The notes under the pieces: model-generated
What the model saw: the letters and a program-made list of their open reading frames with translations, nothing else
Databases searched by the model: none
What the model was told of the DNA's origin: nothing
Position numbers and translations under genes: made by a program
Source: Nymphaea colorata
Lineage: Eukaryota > Streptophyta > Magnoliopsida > Nymphaeales > Nymphaeaceae
Direction of reading: 5' to 3'
Assembly: GCF_008831285.2 (NCBI RefSeq)
Contig: NC_045138.2
Span: forward strand, 30,351,934-30,415,933
DNA length: 64,000 nt
Shown: positions 4,701 to 63,506 of the stretch, one piece after another
Position numbering within the stretch: the stretch's first letter is position 1
Layout of the letters: each line of letters starts with the position of its first letter

Positions 4701-6072
4701 TTACTGTCTCATTCTGGAAATAAACTGTGTTTATCAAAATATGGCACCTTATGCATTTAATTTGATGTAAATAATTACGCGTAATTTCTGACACTAGTGG
4801 TCTCATCTATATTTTGCATAGGTTGACACAGCAGCATGTTTCTGCAAAGTAGATGCAGGCCTGAAAACTGTTGCAGGGGCAAAGAAGTTTGTCCCTGGGA
4901 CAAAACATTGCATTCAGCCCAATATCAAGCCATCAATACATCCTTCTCGAAGCAAGGCTGCTAGAGCTGATCGCAGCCGGGGACAGTCTCCACTATTGCC
5001 AGGCCTTCCTGATGATCTTGCAATACATTGTCTCATTCGTGTTCCACGAGTAGAACATAGAAAGCTTCGGCTAGTCTGCAAAAGGTGGCATCGGCTTCTT
5101 GTAGGAAACTATTTCTACTCTCTTCGTAAGAGCCTTGGAGTGGCCGAGGAATGGATCTATGTCATTAAAAGAGACAAAGATGGGAAAATTTCATGGCATG
5201 CCTTTGATCCAGTGTACCAGCTATGGCAACCGCTTCCACCTGTCCCCAGTGAATATTCAGAAGCACTTGGGTTTGGTTGTGCTGTTCTAAGTGGCTGCCA
5301 CCTCTACCTGTTTGGTGGGAAAGATCCACTGAAGGGATCCATGAGACGGGTAATTTTTTATAATGCAAGGACAAACAAGTGGCATCGTGCTCCAGACATG
5401 CTTAGGAGAAGGCATTTCTCTGGTTCTTGTGTTATAAATAACTGCCTATATGTTGCAGGAGGGGAAAGTGAAGGTGTCCACAGATCATTAAGATCCGCAG
5501 AGATGTATGATCCAAATAAAAATAGATGGTCTTTTATTGCAGATATGAGTACTGCTATGGTTCCATTTATTGGAGTTGTTTACCAAGGGAGGTGGTTCTT
5601 GAAAGGACTTGGCAGTCAACGGCAGGTCATGAGTGAAGTTTATCTTCCAGAAAACAACAGATGGCACCCTGTCTATAATGGCATGGTCACTGGCTGGCGA
5701 AATCCAAGTGTCTCTTTGAATGGGCAGCTTTATGCACTGGATTGCAGGGATGGGTGCAGATTAAGAGTATATGATGGGGAAACTGATTCTTGGAGCAAGC
5801 AGATTGACAGCAGATTGCACTTGGGAAATTCAAGAGCTTTGGAGGCAGCTGCTCTTGTTCCTCTCAATGGGAAACTCTGCATCATCCGGAATAACATGAG
5901 CATCAGTGTGGTTGATGTGTCAAAATCCAATGATATAAGCATGGATCAACCCTGGGAGACGATTGCTGGTAGAGGGCACTTCAGGACATTTGTTGCAAAT
6001 CTTTGGTCAAGCATTGCCGGGAGGAACCGTTTGAAGAGTCACATTGTTCACTGCCAGGTGCTTCAAGCATGA
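1762..6072 (+). CDS. F-box/kelch-repeat protein (At1g55270-like), two exons
   Basis: Exons are 1762-1788 and 4822-6072, giving 425 residues. The 27-bp first exon encodes MDRGPHPPL and ends at a GTGAGT donor. The second follows an AG acceptor in the same phase and begins VDTAAC, the expected continuation in this family. Residues about 68-105 are the F-box (LPGLPDDL, then RKLRLVCKRW), the SKP1-binding segment of SCF ubiquitin ligases. Kelch-type repeats follow, with the signatures GCHLYLFGGKD, NCLYVAGGE, YDPNKNRW and DCRDGCRLRVYD. The C-terminus ends HCQVLQA as in the Arabidopsis relative, so the protein is complete; Arabidopsis has about 434 residues. The likely role is substrate adaptor of an SCF E3 ligase; the substrate is unknown. 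The 3.0-kb first intron is the only one. Family is very secure; the tiny exon 1 rests on phase and family match. Confidence 0.93.
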
Positions 6073-28581: not shown

Positions 28582-31500
28582 GGTATTGCTTCCAATCAAA
28601 AGAATTAGTTTTGTATACACGCTTAACGATGAACATCTCATGGGATATCAAACTGTAGGAAAATTCAAAAAGAACATACCGCATGAAGCAGGGAGCACTT
28701 ACATGGCTTTACAGGCACCAGGAACATGGTACTTGAGGTGTAATCTAGATAGCCAATATCGAGCATGTGTATTCAAATTATCTGCCTCCAAAGCCAGCTC
28801 AAAATTCTCCTTTGCAGTCTATGTCAACAAATAACAATATGAGCTATATGTTTCTCTCTGCCATCTAAAAACAGAATAATGCAAAGCTTCTTGAGATGAA
28901 ATATCTGTGAATTTGTGTTACTTCATAGGAGTTGGAGTCTTGGTGTCAAAATTGTAAGTCAGACTCAGGTTGGTCAGGCAATAAAAGATTAGACGAGACT
29001 AGTAGGTTTGAGGCAGTCTATGTCGTTTGGCTAAATAAATTAAAAAGTAGCCATATAAAGACGGAAATCTAATTGAAAAAAATAATAAAAGACAAACATT
29101 ATCAAGAATCATCGTAACTGCATAGTTCAACAATCTCATAATAGTGCCACACAATGAAATTTAAGTATCCAATGTTTCTCAAGATCATATATAACCTAAT
29201 ACAAATACGAAGGAACATACATAAACAATCATATATACATACATAAGCATATATATAAGAAAAAACATATAAAAGCATGTCACACAGACAATGTACATGT
29301 GTACATACTATATACATACATGTACACACAACATGTGTGTGTGTGTGTGTGTGTGCCTGTAAACTGTAAAGCTATAGAGCACAGAAACTTTACATAAAGC
29401 TTTATGTTATAGAGCAGAAGAATATATAATAGAGCTTCACATTCATAATACAAAAAATAAGACAGAATACAGACTTAGATTTGACGCTTCTCTAGAGAGA
29501 GAAAATCCCAAAACAATAGGAGGCTGGAGATGTTGATTTATAGGTTTATAGTTTATACAGAAGGAAAAATCCAAAAGAAATGAATTTTTATCTAAAACAA
29601 CAACTACAATTATCGATTAAAAAAAACATTATCAAAAATCACATTTAATATTTTAGAAAGGCATTTTTTTTATTTTTCAGAAGGGCTCATGTTAACTACT
29701 AGTTGGTCAACGACTAGAAAATGACTAGTTGACAAAACGACCAATTAATCCCTCAAATTAAACTAGCTTCCTTTGATGGAGGGAGTAGTTGGCTGACTGG
29801 CACCTAGCCACACTGCTCTAGTCAGACCAACTAGTCCCTAGTTTCACAACTAAGCTTGGCAGAGCAAACTCACAAAGATATATTTCATTACAACAGAGGC
29901 TGAAAGCAGATCCTGGAGCACATGCAAATTCAATATTAGCAAATGACAATGGACATGTTGATCCTGCTATTGAACTATTGAAGCCCATGTGGGTGTAGCC
30001 AATTGATGGTAAACTACTTGATGATAAACTGTCTATAAATAGTTGGTTGGAAGTATTATTTACGTGATCATTGACCATCCAGATATTATCTATGCTGTGC
30101 ATATAGTCAGTCAGTTTAGAGGCAGCTGACATGAAGACCATTCATTATTTTGATGGTTGCATGCTTTTATTCTTTTCTACTTCTTGATCATTGGTAGGAC
30201 TCGTTTTATGACAGATTTTGTCAACATGAGATCTAGAACTTCCAATACAGGAGAACTGAATTGTCTGAGAACGAAAAAATGTGTAACCATGGAACTTCAA
30301 CAGCAGTAATGTTTGTTTGACATGTTGAATAAAGAAGACCATCATGAACCCATTGCAGAACCAAATGAAGCACAATTTATTCAGTGAAGGAGGCCAAAAA
30401 AAGCCACCGGATGGACTCTTTTGTTTTGGTTAGATTTATAAGACTCCGGGATATCCTCTAGTTGTTCACGAGGAAATGAGGAATTGAAATAAGTAAGAAA
30501 ATTGAGTGAAGGTCCTAAGTAATTTCTTCCAACAGGATCAAGATGGTGGAAGTATCTAAGCCAAAAACCTAAAAACACCATTCTTTTGGAACAATTAAAA
30601 GGTTTCTATTCTGCATGTAACTAGAACTATTCCAAACTATCAAATGTTAAGAACAACGGAAGTGATTAAGCAAGATAAGGCTACAAAAAGAAGTGGCTAA
30701 GGTTGGATCTCACAGTGTTCGCAAGAGGGTGATGATTTTTGACAAAAGAGAATGTGTTGTACCCTCTTCTGCTCCCGTACCCGCCAATGTCACGTACTGC
30801 TAGCTAGACCGAAGAGCAGATGAGAATGGTGACACAAGCAAGAAGAAAAGAGGGAGTTCAGAGTTCACAAGACTAATAGTTTTGCTTTAAAGAGATAATC
30901 CAAGCGCATGATCTAAACTCCTTAATGCCATAACCAAGAGCAAGTCAGAGTTAAGGATGGTCTCTGAATTCTCTTTAATGCTGCAAACTTAATATATTCC
31001 AAAAGAAAACAGCAAGCAGCACAAACAGTACTGCTGCCTGATCGCAATATGCGTTGTCCTGCCTTAAGCAAAAATTAGCCTCATTTGGGATATGGGAGTA
31101 GTGCAACTGAAAGATCACTGTGAAGAAATAAACCATTCTTATGTGCGCGATGGCAATGGATAGATGGAGAAAACCACAATAAATAGCACTTTGAACGTAC
31201 ATCCGCATACGAGAGTTCCTCGGATGCACCTTTCACAATCAAAACAGCTCATACCATCCGTGCGTCGCATTTGTACTCGTAATTTGAATAAAAAAGGTGG
31301 AGAGAAGAATTAGAATGCAAACGACTGACGGTGATTAGAGATTGTACCAAGAGAAGCGGAATCAGGCGGCGGTCATTCAGGTCGGCGTAGTCGATGACTC
31401 TATCGACTTCCTTCAATGCGCTCCATCCTCTGGCTATAAACTCCATGGCTTGTTTGTTCCTGCTGTGCATTGCCCCTCTCTTGAAAACAAGAAACAAACA

Positions 31501-52439: not shown

Positions 52440-54735
52440 ATGTTCGGGGCATCAACTCTTTATTATAAAAAAGGAAGGTACCTTAGGAGAATAAGGGGTT
52501 GGATTTGAACTTTGGCTCTTTTCTGAGTAGTAGGATCAAATACTCCTCCTACTCATCCAAACAATACTATGTTAATGTTCCTATCGTCGAAGATCTCTTA
52601 AGAGTATAATTGTTTCCCCATGGATATGAGAACCAAATGGGATAGTTATTGTGGACAACCAACGTTTAATCACTGTTTTGTAGTCATGAGACTCACTATT
52701 TAAACAAGCAGTGGAAGAGATGATTGCTACTCTAATTCATGATCAACTCCACAACTAAACTACGAAGAATTGAACGGAATGAGAAACAAAATGAAAATAA
52801 ATGTAGAAGGAGAAAGGGAAACTCAAAGAAAACTTAGGGTTTTCATTCAAACGAAGACTGATGTAGGCTAAAACATGGATCCACGGATCTAGATCCAGAA
52901 CAAAGGAACAATAAATAAATCCTAAAATATTAAACTGGATCTCATGCCTTCAACTCCTGCATCACAATCTAAGGCTATGCTTGACAGCTTTGAATATGAG
53001 ATCCGAGGTTGATCTCAAAATCGCGTTTGATAAAATCCACTGCTGAAGTAAACAGTGGACTAAAGATTGACATTATATTATAAAAACCATGGGTATTGGA
53101 TCCATGTGGAAAATTAATTAGTGGTAGCCTCGAATCTCAAGTAAGAGTCTATCAAACATGGCCTAATTAGTTTTTTTTTTTTTTGGTGTTATCTTTGTAA
53201 GTCATGTCAGTCTAAACTCACTAGTTGGGAGTTTCTGAATCAGACTTAGTTTAGACATTGAGGGGCTTCTTGTTGTCAAGAAGATAGAAAAACTTTGTTA
53301 ATCATTGAGATATTTAAGCTTTTAATTTTTAATACTATGTCCAATTCTAAGATGATTTAAGAAATGTTCTTGGAATCATACAGTTGAAACACTACGTGAG
53401 TGTTTTAGGAATTTGCGTTAAAGATTTGAAACACTATGTAAGTGTTCTTATGAATTTGCGGCTAAAAGATTTGAGCATGAATTTTGAGCATATTCATGAA
53501 CATGAGCCCGTTTTGCTGTTTTCTAAAAGGGTCAACTTGAGAGTAAAAAAGTTTAAAATTTTACGTGTTTATCACTCATGCCAATCCATTTTTCCTATTA
53601 ACTATATAACAGGAAGAAAGAGATGACATGGTAAACAAATAATGAGCGTAAGTAAACTCTGATGGATGAGATTCAGATTGAATATCGGATTGAACTACTT
53701 CAGAAAAGTCAGATACATAAGTTTAACATCCAATTAAGAACTTAACTAAGATTCTAATTTGGAAAATGACAACCGGATTCCAATTCAAATTCAAGTTTAA
53801 ATAAATATCAATGGAGTTCAGATTCAGTTTTAAATAAATATCATATTATCAAATATCCATACATTTCCAAAATCAATTTTAACATATATAATGTGATTCA
53901 TGTTTAGTTGTATATTTAAAAAATCAAACTCATATTCAGATGTGAATATGATTCATATATGGCATAGACTTTTTTTGTTCGAGTGAAATCTAAATATGTG
54001 AATAATAAGGTAAGGTAAAGGGAACATCTGATTCAAGCACGATCCGTTTGCACTCCAATTTTGAAACGTAAGTACATCATCTATGTGGTTTAATCGACTG
54101 CCTTGTAAAATCTCTGCTTCCTTTTGTCACCAATGCATTAAATCTTTATTTTGTGATGCACCAAGCTAATTGATGATATTGGGTGAATGGGAAATGCCAC
54201 CGTCTGAATGAAGACCAAAGTCATTCTCATTCCTCTCATCCTAGTGGCGTAGCCACATGGTGGTTAGTGTGGGCAGTTGCCTACACTAGCCTCACAAAAT
54301 TAGTTTAATATATATCTCAAAAAAAATTAAAGATATTGGATGAGTACCATTTTTTTTCTATTCCTTTTTTAGAAGTACCATAAATTCATGGTGTTCTCCT
54401 ATCCAAAAATTGCAAACACACATACTTTTGGCTTGTCTGATTTAGATATGAAAGAAAGCAAATCGTGACGAAAGAAACCACGTGATGGTTAGAAACATGG
54501 GAGAATCTTAAAGACATCATAGTAAGAAAAAGTATGTCCACTTATCCAAGGGATTGAATTTAAAACTTTAAAATTTATTTGATGTCAGCATTATCTTCAT
54601 ATTCTTGATGAACAAAACAAACTTCAAGAAAAAAAAACCATTAAAATGACTTCTCCAAGACAATAGATGCATGAAAAACATACAAAACGCAAAAAGAATA
54701 CCCAATTTGGCTTAATTTCAAGTTCTTAGGTGATA
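52440..54735. other. Gene-free spacer upstream of the GPC acyltransferase gene
   Basis: AT-rich. It includes a short tandem repeat around GAAACACTACGTGAGTGTT / GAAACACTATGTAAGTGTT (53386-53450) and the hAT-type terminus at 54242. No coding sequence recognised. Confidence 0.45.
54242..54295. mobile_element. Terminus of a hAT-like element (reverse orientation to the 63.3-kb copy)
   Basis: TAGTGGCGTAGCCACATGGT followed by GGTTAGTGTGGGCAGTTGCC and ACACTAGCCTCACAAA matches the reverse complement of the right end of the element at 63328-63506. The second end was not found within 1 kb, so this is probably truncated. Confidence 0.5.
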
Positions 54736-55166: not shown

Positions 55167-58100
55167 ATGATGAAAGAAGAGGGAACGCAGGGGGAAGGGA
55201 GGCGATTCAAGGTCAGGCAGAAACTTGTGGCTCACAGACTCAAGGTACGCCTTTTGGTGGCCTTCCTATGTTCCAGATTTGCTGTGATTCTTCGTGTTTT
55301 CTCTTTTCTGCAATGTTGGTGCATCTGTTTTTTGGTCATGAGTGGTTCTGAAAGGGCCACTGCTTTCTTTCTTCCTTTCCGGCTGGTCGGGGACGATGGT
55401 GTAGACGAAAGAAATATTGTCGAAGCAGGCGAAAAGAATAGCGGAGCAAGCCGAAGAACATGAGCGCCTCATCAATAAGGTTCCCTTTTCTTTGTTCCTT
55501 CGTCCATTTCAACTTCCCTTATCAGGCTTTGTGTTTTTGAGTTGTTTTAATATATGTGGAGGCTTTGTGTTTTTGAGTTGTTTTAATATATGTGGAGGCT
55601 TTGTGTTTTTGAGTTGTTTTAATATATGTGGAGGCTTTGTGTTTTTGAGTTGTTTTAATATATGTGGTCATCCTTTTGGTGATCGGCAATCGCGGTGGCA
55701 TCATGACATGCAGGTTACTCATCTTCTTGGGGTGCTAGGATTTGGTGCCTTTTGCTTCCTGTTGGGATCCAGTAAGTTTGATCCTTCGTTAACTTTGTTG
55801 ACACCTCTTATTATTTTCGCCATTGTTTCTCTCTGTTTTTAATTTTGTTCAGATATACAGGGCCGCAGGATTCTCCTTATGTGTATTGTGTCTTCTACGT
55901 CACGTTTGTCCCGCTAAGGTGGATATACTATCGGTTCAAGAAGTGGCATTACTACCTTTTGGTTGGTCTCCTTAGTACCTCCGTTACTGGTTCAAGTAAT
56001 GTGATATTTTCTTCTTTTAATCTTACCCTTGTTCAAATATGTGGTCGTTCGATTGGATGTTGCACCGGAACATCTATTTTCTTAAGACTGGAGAGCGGCA
56101 GAAAGAATGAACGAATGAGAAGAAATGGGTACCGATTGGCGTATGCTTGTGGACTGTAGTTCTTCCTTTATATGTAAAATCAAATTGCGTTTAAGCAGAG
56201 CGAGCTTAGCAACTAAAATCATGTGACCTTTCTTTTCTATTTGTTTTCTTTATGAGAAACTTGATGTTATTTTGTTCTTTCTTTCAAGTAAGAAATGAAG
56301 TGGACAAGTTAGTTACGTCCTCTTTCCTTTAACTTGGGAGTTTCCACGTTGGAAAGATGACCACTGTGAAGTAGGAAGGTTAATATTTCATATCTTCCAA
56401 ACATTATCTATGCGAGCTCATCTGCCTTCTTATGGATTTCTCAGCTTCTGTACAGGAGGGTACTTTTTAGTTTTTATCCTTTTTTTGTTTATTTGATTTC
56501 TGTTAGGACTAATTTTCCTACGTCACGGCTCTTACAAGTTTAGAATGGGAACCTAGTGCGATTGGAGAGCACTTTATTCTGTTAACCAGCAGTTATAAGA
56601 GTTTCCCCCCTGTCAAAATTCTGGGGGACATAGCAGATCAAGTGAAGTTCCTAGCTTGTAGAGTATCATAAATTTGTAATCCATTAGTTAAAATGACATT
56701 ATATTGAAAAAACCAATTTAGCAACATAATTAGAAAGCTCGGTTGAAATATAAGCATATTCTTGGCCTACAGGCTACAACTAATCAATCAACATGGCTGG
56801 ATAACAAACTTTTTGTTTAAACACAAATATGAAAATCGATCTATCTCTTTTGCATTTTGTTCTTATTTTGGGAAGTGGTTGTAGTATATCCAAGTGGCTA
56901 GTGTACCCCTTTTGAGTCTGACATAGGTGAAAGAGCACATTACAGAATATGTAACTAGTCCATCTCACATGATGAGGAGTAATTGCCATGTATACTTTAT
57001 TTGTCAAAACCATGTTTGGCATGACCTTGTTACAGTTTTATCACTTTATGCCAGTGTCATGCAAATAAGCATGAGATAAATATTGGGATGATTGTCATTG
57101 TAACCAGTGACTTACACCTATTACACACTTTTTCAAGGGTTGCTGAAATAATGTCTCTGGATGCCTGTGTGTATGTTAACAATGTCAGGAGAACAACATT
57201 ATTAAGTTATATGTACATATGTATATTGGTGCATCTGCACTTATGCACATGTAGATGCAATGGAAGGAAGGAGTTAGATAACATGGTTGTACACATTGAC
57301 ATGAGCATGTGGTTTTTATGGCATACTCTCTTGTTTGAACCTAACATTCCTTAAAGCAATTACTAAAGCATTCCTGATATGTTCCTACAATTTGCTCCAC
57401 ATTCAAGCAAGTAAAAATTGATGCCATAGTCAGGTTATGTTGACAAAAGCCTTTTAGTAGGGTCAATTTGGATGTCTAGTTCTTTAATGAAGAATTAAGT
57501 TGTCATCCATTTGACCAAACTTGTTGCTCCATATCCTTTTTATTGCTATAAGTGGAAAACCTGGTGAGTTTAATCTTTTAGACACCTTGTTTTTAATCCC
57601 CATTTTTTATATGGAGACCAAGTGTTCAATTCTTTGTGAGAGGCAAGGACTAAAATTTCTGGTTAAGGTTTTCTATCTGGCATGCCAGGCACATTATACA
57701 TTATAGAGCTGGATATTCTTCTATGATCTATCTGCTGGAGCACTTACAACTTACTCCCCTTTGGTAAAATTTTCTGTTCTTTCCCCTTTTCAGTGAAATG
57801 ATGTAGTTTTTATAAACGTTGCAGGATTTTTGCTACTATGCAAATACGATCTTCCTATTTATGCTGCTTATGTGTCCAAGAAGTGAAAAGTTTTTCATGG
57901 TTTGCTTTTCTTTTGCAGAGGTGGGTACATTCCTTTGATTTAGTGATGTCCTATTTGTAATCAAAACACTTTTGATGGACTTATTATCTTCTGGGTGCTG
58001 TTATAGGGACCACTAGCCTGGGCTTTGATTGTTTGGCGTTGTAGCCTTGTTTTCAGTTCGCTGGACAAGCTTGTCAGTGTCTTGATCCATCTTTTACCTG

Positions 58101-61100
58101 GTAAGACTCATCCTATTGTCATTACAATTATAGCTATAGGCTACAACAAATTTCTGAAAGTGGCTGTTATAGCAGTGGTTGCATGGGTAAGAGGCAGGTT
58201 AATACCAATGTTGTTGCCAATTGCGGTATTCCTTACTCAAGTAATATCTACGTTGTTAAGGGCTCACTTAGGCGTGGACTAAGCATGAGTCCAGACCCAT
58301 CGCCTGAGTCCACCACTTGGGCGATGGGACATGTGTTGGTGCCTAGGCTGGTGCTTAGGCTCACCTAGGCTGACGCTTAGGCTCACCTATGCTGGCCTAG
58401 ATGCCAACACGCCTAGTCCATGAAAAAGTGAAAAATCACCTTTTTAATTGAGTATATATTGTTGTGTACTTAATTGAGTAGACATTGTTATGTACATGTT
58501 AGTATGGTTATGTACTTATATGTATTGTTACGGTTGTGTACTTATATGTATACTATTGTGTACTGTTAGTCTTTTTTATTATAGTTTGGCTTTCTTTAAG
58601 TACAGATGGATTAAAGCCTCCTTGCAAGATTTACATTCCTTCTTTTAGAGATTAGATTTAGTTTTTTTTTTCCTTGTATTAGATTAAATTTAGTGAGTAA
58701 TGTTAAACTTCTTCTATTGATTTTGCATTTTCAATGAAGTCAACAATTAATTTTTGATTGTTTAAGTTGATCATGCTTGTTATATTACTTCTCTCCACAT
58801 TTCAAGTATTAGTAATAGTTAATCAAAATAACTTGACATATTAACATAACTAAAAAAAATTGGTTGTCTTTTTTGCCTAGGCCTGCCTAAGGCCAGCCTA
58901 GGCACTAAGCCCTGCTGCCTGGGCGCCTGACAACATAGAGTAATATTCTGTCAGGATATCTACAATGAGTATTGAAATTATGAACAAACTAAACCTCTCT
59001 GTATCCTTAGATTTCAAGATAATAGCTTCTGCCTGTCATGAGGTTAGATTGTCTCTATAAATAAACTTCCACACTAACAATATTATTTGGAGCATGTTGT
59101 GGCCATATACTTAGTTGAGTTTCACAGCCTTTTTAGCTAATTAAGTATAGAATCTCAATCTATAGTAAAGCCGTAAAGGTAATATGGCTTTACAGAGGTT
59201 TTGTTTGGTTCTTTGTTTTCCTGCTTCTATGTCTCACGAAATATCTTCATCCTGCAGTCTCAGTTAGAATCTAGGAGCTTTACTTCTTAGGGTAATGAAT
59301 TTCTAGCTCATTTCTTTCCCAAGTTCTCTATGGGGAACTTTGGATTTTCAAGATTTCTGATGAGTATCTGCTGTAGGCCTTTCTTGATGACATAGCCGAA
59401 AGGAACAATTGTGCAGCTCATGATGATGAAATAGTGTTGATTCCCTTTAAATTCATGAAGCTAATGTTTGAACTAAAAGATTATCTTTTCATGATGAAGT
59501 TAATGTTTGAACTAAAATATTATCTTTTGATGTATTGATGAATTTAGGCAAGTTCATGATTTGGAGAATTTGGTTTTCACAAAATCTGGAGGCCAGAGAT
59601 GACTTGGTTACTTGTCAATTGTCATTTAATGTCAACATTCTTCTATTCATAATTCATGAAAACAAATTATGTGATAAACTCGAAGGCAGTATAAGTACCC
59701 AGCCAATTTTCGAAATGTTTTCTAAAATATAAATTGAAAGCATATTAAAAAGACTGCCTTTTTCATGATTTTCCCAGTTAATCTTGTCATGAATGAGTAT
59801 TTTCTCCTGGAGGACTTCATCCACCCTATGTATGCTAACATTTCTTTTGTTTATGTAACCGGTCGCTGATATAGGTTTTACCAAGGGCAGAATTGGCTTT
59901 CTAGGGATTGATTTTGGGTCAAGTCTTCAGTTTCTAAAGAGTTTGACATAACCACGAGAAGGTAGGTGCAAGAGTTTAGAGAAGGGAAATCGGTAAACTA
60001 AGTCCTCTGGCTTGAAGTTCCCTTTCTCCTCCTCCAACCATGGCTGTTTGACATCTTTTATCACTAAAGAAGAAGAAGTATCAGTAAAGATGCTAATATA
60101 AAATCCACTGATAACACACATGATAAATATGATGATGACCCATATCTTACTTAGTGGGGGTCAATACGCTTATCAAAATGATGTTTTACATCAGCCTAAG
60201 CTTTGATTCCATGGTACATTATGTTGTATTTTAAGATTTGATGTCCTACCAAAACTAATTTATTAGTAACACCAGGATTAATGAATCTTTCTCGAATTTC
60301 TCATAAGATATGAGAAAGTTTTACAGCCTATTGCTATGTGTATCTCTGCAATCCTTCTCTGTACAGTCTTGTGATTGTAATTGGTTAAGGTGAAGTGAAG
60401 AAAAGTGACGTTCTCAATATATTGAATATATGATACTCTTCTTGCTTATAGTATCAATGTCTCTATCTACATGTTGATACTATAACATCCAGTAATTGGA
60501 TGAGCATTTAGTTGGGATGCAGGCAGGAAGTTAATCTTACCTTATTCTTGTGAGATGCTGGTTATTCACCAGGTTGACCCAGTAACATGCCCACCCATTC
60601 TGACTAGGGGAACTTGACCAAGTTTTGAACTTTCAATTGTTTTTTACTTGTCTTGCATATGAGTGAAACTTGTGCACAAGTAGGATAAATGTACAAATTT
60701 AGCCAGAGCATGAATCTATAAGAACTCTTACCATGCTGACAATTTCATCAGGAGGTGAGAAAAAGGTGTCCAGCTTGTGCTATTTTCTCCTCTCTTTTTT
60801 TCCCTACTGAGGTAAGGAAGAAAAAATGTCTTGCTACCTCAGCGTTTTCATGGATGTAATGCTGAAATACATGGGCCTTCAGAAGCCAGGTTGCCTGTAC
60901 AAATTCCATTCTGTACTTGGTTAGATCTTAAAAGGCAAGGGATATATGCTGCTTTTGTTTGCATTATTTTTTTGTCAACTTCCTCAGAGTCGCACTGTGA
61001 CACAGTCAGTGTACAGCTATAATCCTATGGCCATTTTATCATCTTATAAGAGGTTCTCCGGCCTTGGAGAAATTTTCATAGGGGCGTAAAAGTTGTATAT

Positions 61101-61244
61101 CTTTTATGGGTTCAACCAAGGTAAAAAGAAATTTGTTAAAAGTGAGAAGTCTGACTTGTCACATGGATATGGATGCAGTAGTTGGATCAGATGGGATGTG
61201 GATACTTTTGGTACGACGCCATTTCCAAAACTTAGGATGTATAA

Positions 61245-61275
<31 letters not shown>

Positions 61276-62129
61276 GCCTACTCATTATCTACAGACTACA
61301 GTATGCCATTTCATCTTCTATTCACTAATATCTTATTATTTAATATATATATATATATATATATATAAGGACTTTCAGATCATGAGATTCCTAATACTGT
61401 AGTTAACTTGCAGGGCTTGTGTTTTTCACAATACGCTGGTGGGATCCAAATATGATTGCAGGTATTCACCGTGATCAACAGGCTGGATATAGAACCGTGT
61501 GGCCTCATGTGGAGGATAAAAAGACCTTGTGGACATGGCTCTTTTTAGTCCCCCTGGTTGCTTACACTTTGTGGCAGGTTCTTTATTTTCTTATTGTTAA
61601 TGTACTGAGACGGCAGCGATTATTAAGAGATCCAGAAGTCATGACATCTTACAGGTCTCTCCCTCTCTCCCTCTCTCCTCATGTGTGTAATAATTCATGT
61701 GTCTCAATTGTCATGGTGTTTTGGATATAATTGTTCAGAGAACTGTCAAAGAAGGCTAAAAAGGCCAATAATGTGTGGTGGAGACTCAGTGGATTGCTGG
61801 GGGATCAGAACCGTCTCCTCATGTATATTGTGCTGCAAGCTGCATTCACAGTGGCTACAACGGCTCTCACCGTTCCCATCTTCATGGTGTATGAGCTGCA
61901 TGCGACCTTCCAAATTCTCAAGGTTTCTGCTGCCGTATGGAATGGTGGAAGCTTCCTTCTGGAGGTAATGCCTAGGCAGGTTGTTATGAAGGAGAAGAAG
62001 AAATTGGAGATGCAGCCCATCATGTGCTGTGAAACGAAAGATGCACAAAAGCAAGATGCTACCCAGAATGGTCCGCAAACAACCGAAGGCGCTGGTAATG
62101 CACAGAATGCTTTGGTGGACAGTTCCTAA
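55167..62129 (+). CDS. GPCAT: Glycerophosphocholine acyltransferase (GPC1/DUF2838 membrane protein), 8 exons
   Basis: Exons: 55167-55244, 55405-55479, 55714-55771, 55861-55961, 57825-57920, 58007-58100, 61414-61654 and 61739-62129. All junctions are GT/AG in phase, giving 377 residues; Arabidopsis At5g35460 is about the same length. The family transfers an acyl group from acyl-CoA to glycerophosphocholine, making lysophosphatidylcholine for PC remodelling, probably in the ER. Residues 27-51 form a charged helix ([20 protein letters not shown]). About eight hydrophobic segments follow, starting at [15 protein letters not shown] and including [41 protein letters not shown] and [19 protein letters not shown]. 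Conserved family blocks [20 protein letters not shown] and LLGDQNR are present. The first of two adjacent ATGs is used. The tail after about residue 325 is hydrophilic and variable. Intron 6 is 3.3 kb. Intron 2 is unusual (see the repeat at 55525). Confidence 0.93.
55525..55668. repeat. 4 x 36-bp identical tandem repeat inside intron 2 of the GPC acyltransferase gene
   Basis: Units begin GGCTTTGTGTTTTTGAGTTG at 55525, 55561, 55597 and 55633 and are identical through TTTTAATATATGTGG; the last differs only at its final base. The period is a multiple of three. The host intron (55480-55713, 234 bp) is open in the reading frame of exon 2, so each unit would read [12 protein letters not shown] if retained. 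Confidence 0.97.
58255..58940. mobile_element. Insertion with GCCTAGGC-rich inverted arms in intron 6
   Basis: The left arm (about 58255-58420) is full of CTTAGGC, GCCTAGGCT and CACCTAGGC units. The right arm (about 58878-58930) has GCCTAGGCCTGCC, GGCCAGCCTAGGC and GGGCGCCTGAC, broadly the reverse complement. Between them lies about 450 bp of AT-rich DNA with TATGTACTTATATG-type repeats. The shape suggests a non-autonomous DNA transposon; no exact ends or target duplication were fixed. Confidence 0.4.
61250..61368. repeat. (CT)n and (TA)n microsatellites near the 3' end of intron 6
   Basis: About 26 bp of CT (61250-61276) and about 28 bp of TA (61340-61368), shortly before the exon 7 acceptor at 61413. 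Confidence 0.9.
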
Positions 62130-63327: not shown

Positions 63328-63506
63328 CACTAGCAGAGACAGAAATCTGGGCTGGTGAGGGCATTAGTTCAATAACATTAATGTTTTAAGGGGCACTTAT
63401 AATGTAAACAACCAAATACAAGAAATTATTAACATAAAAATAAGCAAAGTTTGTGAGGCTGGTGTGGGCAACTGCCCACACTAGCCACCATGTGGTTCTG
63501 CCACTG
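63328..63506. mobile_element. Complete 179-bp hAT-type MITE with perfect 8-bp target-site duplication
   Basis: The left end is CACTAGCAGAGAC. The right end is GTTCTGCCACTG, reverse complement CAGTGGCAGAAC, so the imperfect inverted termini are Tip100-like. The flanks are GTGACACT at 63320-63327 and GTGACACT at 63507-63514, identical. The palindrome GTGTGGGCAACTGCCCACAC sits about 30 bp inside the right end. There is no ORF, so mobility would need a transposase from elsewhere. Confidence 0.82.

Follow-up and report, generated by a model that had tools for sequence, protein, structure and literature searches.

Exitrons, according to Marquez et al. (2015, PMC4484396), are internal parts of coding exons that lack stop codons and are flanked by weaker splice sites. 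The same study places their GC content above that of introns and below that of exons, and describes the retained form as the major isoform. In Arabidopsis, the length of 45.8% of exitrons is divisible by three, which is an enriched rather than a required trait, and synonymous substitutions are prevalent. Introns that are divisible by three and carry no stop codons form a related group (Jaillon et al. 2008, as cited in PMC4484396). Both descriptions are relevant to the second intron of a plant glycerophosphocholine acyltransferase (GPCAT) gene, which had preliminarily been described as a possible exitron or as a recently expanded minisatellite under frame constraint. The corresponding Arabidopsis gene, AT5G35460, encodes a 381-aa protein with DUF2838 at residues 67-176; it comprises nine exons and gives rise to two splice variants, neither of which loses the domain (PMC13027849).

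The GPCAT gene and its repeat-bearing intron

The gene model was assembled manually, guided by splice signals and the protein expected of plant GPCATs, and uses sequence alone. Its features are collected in Table 1, where positions refer to the window, meaning the whole 64-kb stretch of DNA that was analyzed.

Table 1. Positions and supporting evidence for the features discussed in the text
Feature	Position	Strand	Basis
GPC acyltransferase (GPCAT/GPC1, DUF2838) coding region, 8 coding exons	55167..62129	+	Hand-made gene model; Pfam PF10998, E 2.3e-37
Intron 1, 160 bp, stop-free in frame, not divisible by three (internal control)	55245..55404	+	Gene model
Exon 2, 25 codons	55405..55479	+	Gene model
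Weak 5' splice site AAG/GTTCCC	55477..55485	+	Consensus match at 5 of 9 positions; U1 pairing the weakest among 7 donors
Intron 2, 234 bp, GT..AG, phase 0, exon frame stop-free	55480..55713	+	Gene model, frame reading
Minisatellite, four identical 36-bp units in exon frame, 12-residue peptide x4	55524..55667	+	36 bp x 4.0, 100%
Branch-point-like A of TTAAT motif, unit 4, 55 nt before 3' splice site	55658	+	Consensus match only
Exon 3, 58 nt	55714..55771	+	Gene model; with the acceptor, first bases CAG/GTTACT also donor-like

The sequence identifies the gene as one for a plant glycerophosphocholine acyltransferase, with an activity predicted from the family (PMC5122774). Removal of all seven introns from the hand-made eight-exon model yields an uninterrupted protein of 377 aa, and Pfam family PF10998 (DUF2838) matches this product with 128 bits against a cut-off of 25.2, covering profile positions 2-111 of 111. 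If intron 2 is retained, the product is 455 aa long and the match is 124.3 bits over positions 3-111, so that the two forms differ by one aligned residue. The match to the spliced protein starts at residue 51, the last residue of exon 2, and the match to the retained form starts one profile position later. Because the match crosses the join between exons 2 and 3 by only one residue, it is hardly a test of that join. Since the 377 aa of the spliced form are close to the 381 aa of the Arabidopsis protein and the retained form reaches 455 aa, the spliced version is very probably the usual one. The Arabidopsis gene has nine exons, and the model here has eight that are coding.

The intron status of positions 55480-55713 is based on splice signals and on the expected protein. 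The boundaries, length, phase and stop-free frame given in the preliminary description all agree with our gene model and frame reading. The frame remains open from exon 2 through intron 2 into exon 3. The four repeat units (55524-55559, 55560-55595, 55596-55631 and 55632-55667) have no mismatches among them, which likewise bears out the earlier report, and the period ends exactly at both edges of the array, with no extra base to the left or right. Together the units make up nearly two thirds of the intron. Both other forward frames contain a stop in each 36-bp unit, and one reverse frame is open throughout the array. The intron as a whole is 47% T and 37% GC, and the array is 53% T.

Minisatellites are composed of head-to-tail units of roughly 10-100 bp, and the array, with 4.0 head-to-tail copies of 36 bp, conforms to this pattern. 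No further copy of the unit with three or fewer mismatches was found in the rest of the 64-kb window, and 100 shuffles gave no match at the same threshold; the array is beyond chance. The absence of any difference among the four units suggests recent duplication or homogenization. The earlier label of a minisatellite thus stands, with identity among the copies as the grounds for calling its expansion recent.

Short tandem arrays are frequent in the window, where Tandem Repeats Finder (TRF) reports 18 others with a period of at least 12, making 19 in total (36 TRF rows, less 15 with shorter periods and two that duplicate another array). The period is divisible by three in nine of the 19, or in eight if the alternative row is used for the array near 29215. 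At 4.0 copies, the intron 2 array has the highest copy number of the 19, the next being 3.0. Nothing in these arrays suggests that the one in intron 2 was selected by frame.

No Pfam family matched the 78-residue insert at E values up to 1, and a search against solved structures gave one match, at chance level (E 0.97). A 35-base stretch of the unit had no exact match in the viral_contigs collection. A 272-aa part of GPCAT gave one pattern stretch in viral_contigs and eight in genome_contigs, of which none was confirmed. Because these two collections hold viruses, bacteria and archaea, the lack of matches is uninformative about plants. A repeat-bearing intron in this GPCAT gene was not found among the literature titles listed, which is not proof of its absence from print.

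Other parts of the window also contain features that deserve mention. An open frame of 416 codons at 4822-6069 has F-box and kelch Pfam matches; of the 20 open reading frames scanned among the 29 listed, no other exceeded the curated cut-off. Two 65-bp stretches (54243-54307 and 63441-63505) that are 86% alike flank the GPCAT gene, one on each side and inverted relative to each other, and may belong to a dispersed mobile element. Within intron 6, GC-rich motifs of the cctaggc type were seen by eye at 58260-58400 and 58870-58935, and TRF reports a 22-bp period at 58342-58396. These motifs may mark where an inserted element begins and ends. Self-comparison of the two intron 6 regions gave no match of at least 35 bp among the matches listed.

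The open frame and the composition of the intron

The stop-free frame of 78 codons holds little surprise. The four units are all open because 36 is divisible by three and one unit is open, and copies two to four therefore contribute no independent codons. With a single unit the intron would be 126 bp, still divisible by three and stop-free. Dinucleotide shuffles of the single-copy intron were stop-free in 1910 of 5000 cases. When the unit and its flanks were shuffled separately and the unit was then quadrupled, 627 of 5000 remained open. Of the 126-nt stretches drawn from the window, 286 of 2556 had no in-frame stop (87 of 624 for T-rich stretches), as did 62 of 2552 stretches of 234 nt. Among T-rich GT..AG spans of 80-300 nt on both strands of the window, 477 of 6130 were stop-free and 115 of 6130 were also divisible by three; the spans are overlapping rather than independent, and intron 2 looks rarer by this control than by the shuffles.

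Within the gene itself, two of the seven introns (1 and 2) are stop-free in frame, and three (2, 4 and 7) are divisible by three, which is expected of about one third of introns. Intron 1 runs through 53 in-frame codons without a stop. The open frame of intron 2 is therefore weakly unusual, at most. The same arithmetic leaves the proposed frame constraint unsupported, because a 36-bp unit preserves the frame automatically. For this reason, length variants in multiples of three cannot distinguish constraint from its absence, and we discarded length steps as a test of it.

The preliminary description also emphasized the hydrophobic character of the repeats. A 12-residue peptide can indeed be read four times in frame, but its hydrophobicity is what T-rich DNA is expected to encode. 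The mean Kyte-Doolittle value of the array is 1.73 compared with an average of 1.99 for shuffled units, and 3315 of 5000 shuffles were at least as hydrophobic. Nearly all shuffles of the single-copy intron are more hydrophobic than it is, with 4983 of 5000 reaching its value.

Codon usage was examined with a rough score trained on the GPCAT gene and the F-box/kelch reading frame versus introns 4 and 6, with each exon left out in turn. The array scores -0.60 bits per codon, and the eight exons range from -0.19 to +0.46. Single-copy intron 2 and intron 1 score -0.13 and -0.01, respectively. Because the training set is small and exons and introns are poorly separated, only the array stands clearly apart. 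The final 45 nt of intron 2 are exon-like (GC 0.53, codon score +0.325), although this is a tiny sample.

At 0.37, the GC content of intron 2 is the third highest of the seven GPCAT introns, which span 0.31-0.47 with a middle value of 0.36. The whole coding sequence has a GC content of 0.458, and exon 5 alone has 0.34. With one unit, the GC content of intron 2 would be 0.42, the second highest of the seven.

Splice signals and competing explanations

Donor sites were scored by agreement with the general donor consensus and by pairing with the end of U1. The intron 2 donor pairs with U1 at -4.1 kcal/mol, close to the -4.5 kcal/mol of the intron 4 donor, which likewise agrees with the consensus at 5 of 9 positions. 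Among the 3363 GT sites on the plus strand of the window, 41.5% equal or exceed the intron 2 donor by consensus and 15.8% do so by U1 pairing. The branch-point pattern is yUnAy, and every 36-bp unit offers a branch-point-like TTAAT motif together with U tracts.

Two other junctions in this region have features of their own. The 3' junction of intron 2 (55711-55719) scores 7 of 9 and -5.6 kcal/mol as a donor, which beats the intron's own donor, and splicing from this junction to exon 4 would skip exon 3, 58 nt long, and shift the frame. Intron 3 ends (55850-55860) with two AGs 8 nt apart (CAGATATACAG); the second gives the expected protein, and the first would cause a frameshift. RNA structure as a purpose for the repeats found no support: intron 2 has a less stable fold than its shuffles (z +2.01), and 197 of 200 shuffles fold at least as well.

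We assign a probability of about 0.86 to the reading that intron 2 is a normal U-rich intron that underwent recent tandem duplication within its borders and is spliced out, with repeats that are likely inert. One T-rich stretch of 36 bp in an ordinary spliceosomal intron would recently have been copied from one to four. The ancestral intron, presumably 126 bp with a single unit, would by chance have lacked a stop and had a length that is a multiple of three, and a unit open once would be open in each copy, giving the stop-free 234 bp seen today. Splicing would normally, and probably constitutively, remove this segment. The repeats most likely do nothing but lengthen a U-rich intron. At most, they would multiply U-rich tracts and branch-point-like motifs, and if anything should therefore favor rather than hinder splicing at the weak donor. 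The array is possibly length-polymorphic. Several points count against this reading, namely the weak donor, the 115 of 6130 spans, the exon-like last 45 nt, the single-unit GC of 0.42, and a Pfam match that barely crosses the join. Even so, noncoding DNA of an ordinary kind, recently duplicated, is the best reading of intron 2.

An unlikely alternative is that the weak donor, last of seven by U1 pairing, occasionally leaves intron 2 in the message, yielding a low-level 455-aa protein that is mostly noise and carries extra hydrophobic segments ahead of the first membrane span. The frame is open through exon 3, and retained transcripts should escape nonsense-mediated decay because they contain no premature stop. 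Moreover, retention costs the DUF2838 match just one profile position, and this near-intact match, together with the weak donor, hints at occasional retention. However, the intron 4 donor is equally poor by consensus and similar by U1 pairing, and the composition of intron 2 is intron-like. A true exitron, in which a regulated coding segment uses the repeat peptide to alter enzyme topology or redox behavior, is far less probable. Its appeal comes from the weak donor and the stop-free length divisible by three. Against it, the usual protein length is obtained only without intron 2, the GC content of this intron is mid-range for introns, the array differs from exons in codon use, and the 78 residues of the intron contain no Pfam family at E values up to 1. 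We give just as little credence to the more specific proposal that retention is tissue-regulated, and that copy-number steps of 36 bp set the count of hydrophobic, Cys-containing repeats by the first membrane span. Finally, identical short tandem copies can be assembled wrongly, and the real number of units could be other than four. Ordinary reads can span 144 bp, however, and we consider an assembly artifact very improbable.

Comparison with known systems

This locus offers a caution for the interpretation of open introns. Where T-rich plant introns are open, they spell hydrophobic peptides, and units divisible by three are open in all copies, such that a repeat-bearing open intron can mimic coding sequence. 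If retention were true, an intronic length polymorphism would be tied to the topology of a membrane protein.

Intron 2 shares with exitrons the absence of in-frame stops and divisibility by three. Its donor, the splice site compared, is also weak, being last of the seven by U1 pairing and level with that of intron 4 by consensus. Unlike exitrons, its GC content is typical of GPCAT introns (0.37, a weak departure from the exitron pattern given that one gene is compared), and the usual protein length results only when it is removed. With the introns of Jaillon et al. (2008) it has in common divisibility by three and the lack of an in-frame stop, but differs in that nearly two thirds of its length is repeat, with a unit that is itself divisible by three. 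The closest likeness is to intronic minisatellites or small tandem duplications, which also place short identical units head to tail in an intron. From these, the array in intron 2 differs in nothing but its copy number, which tops the 19 arrays of the window.
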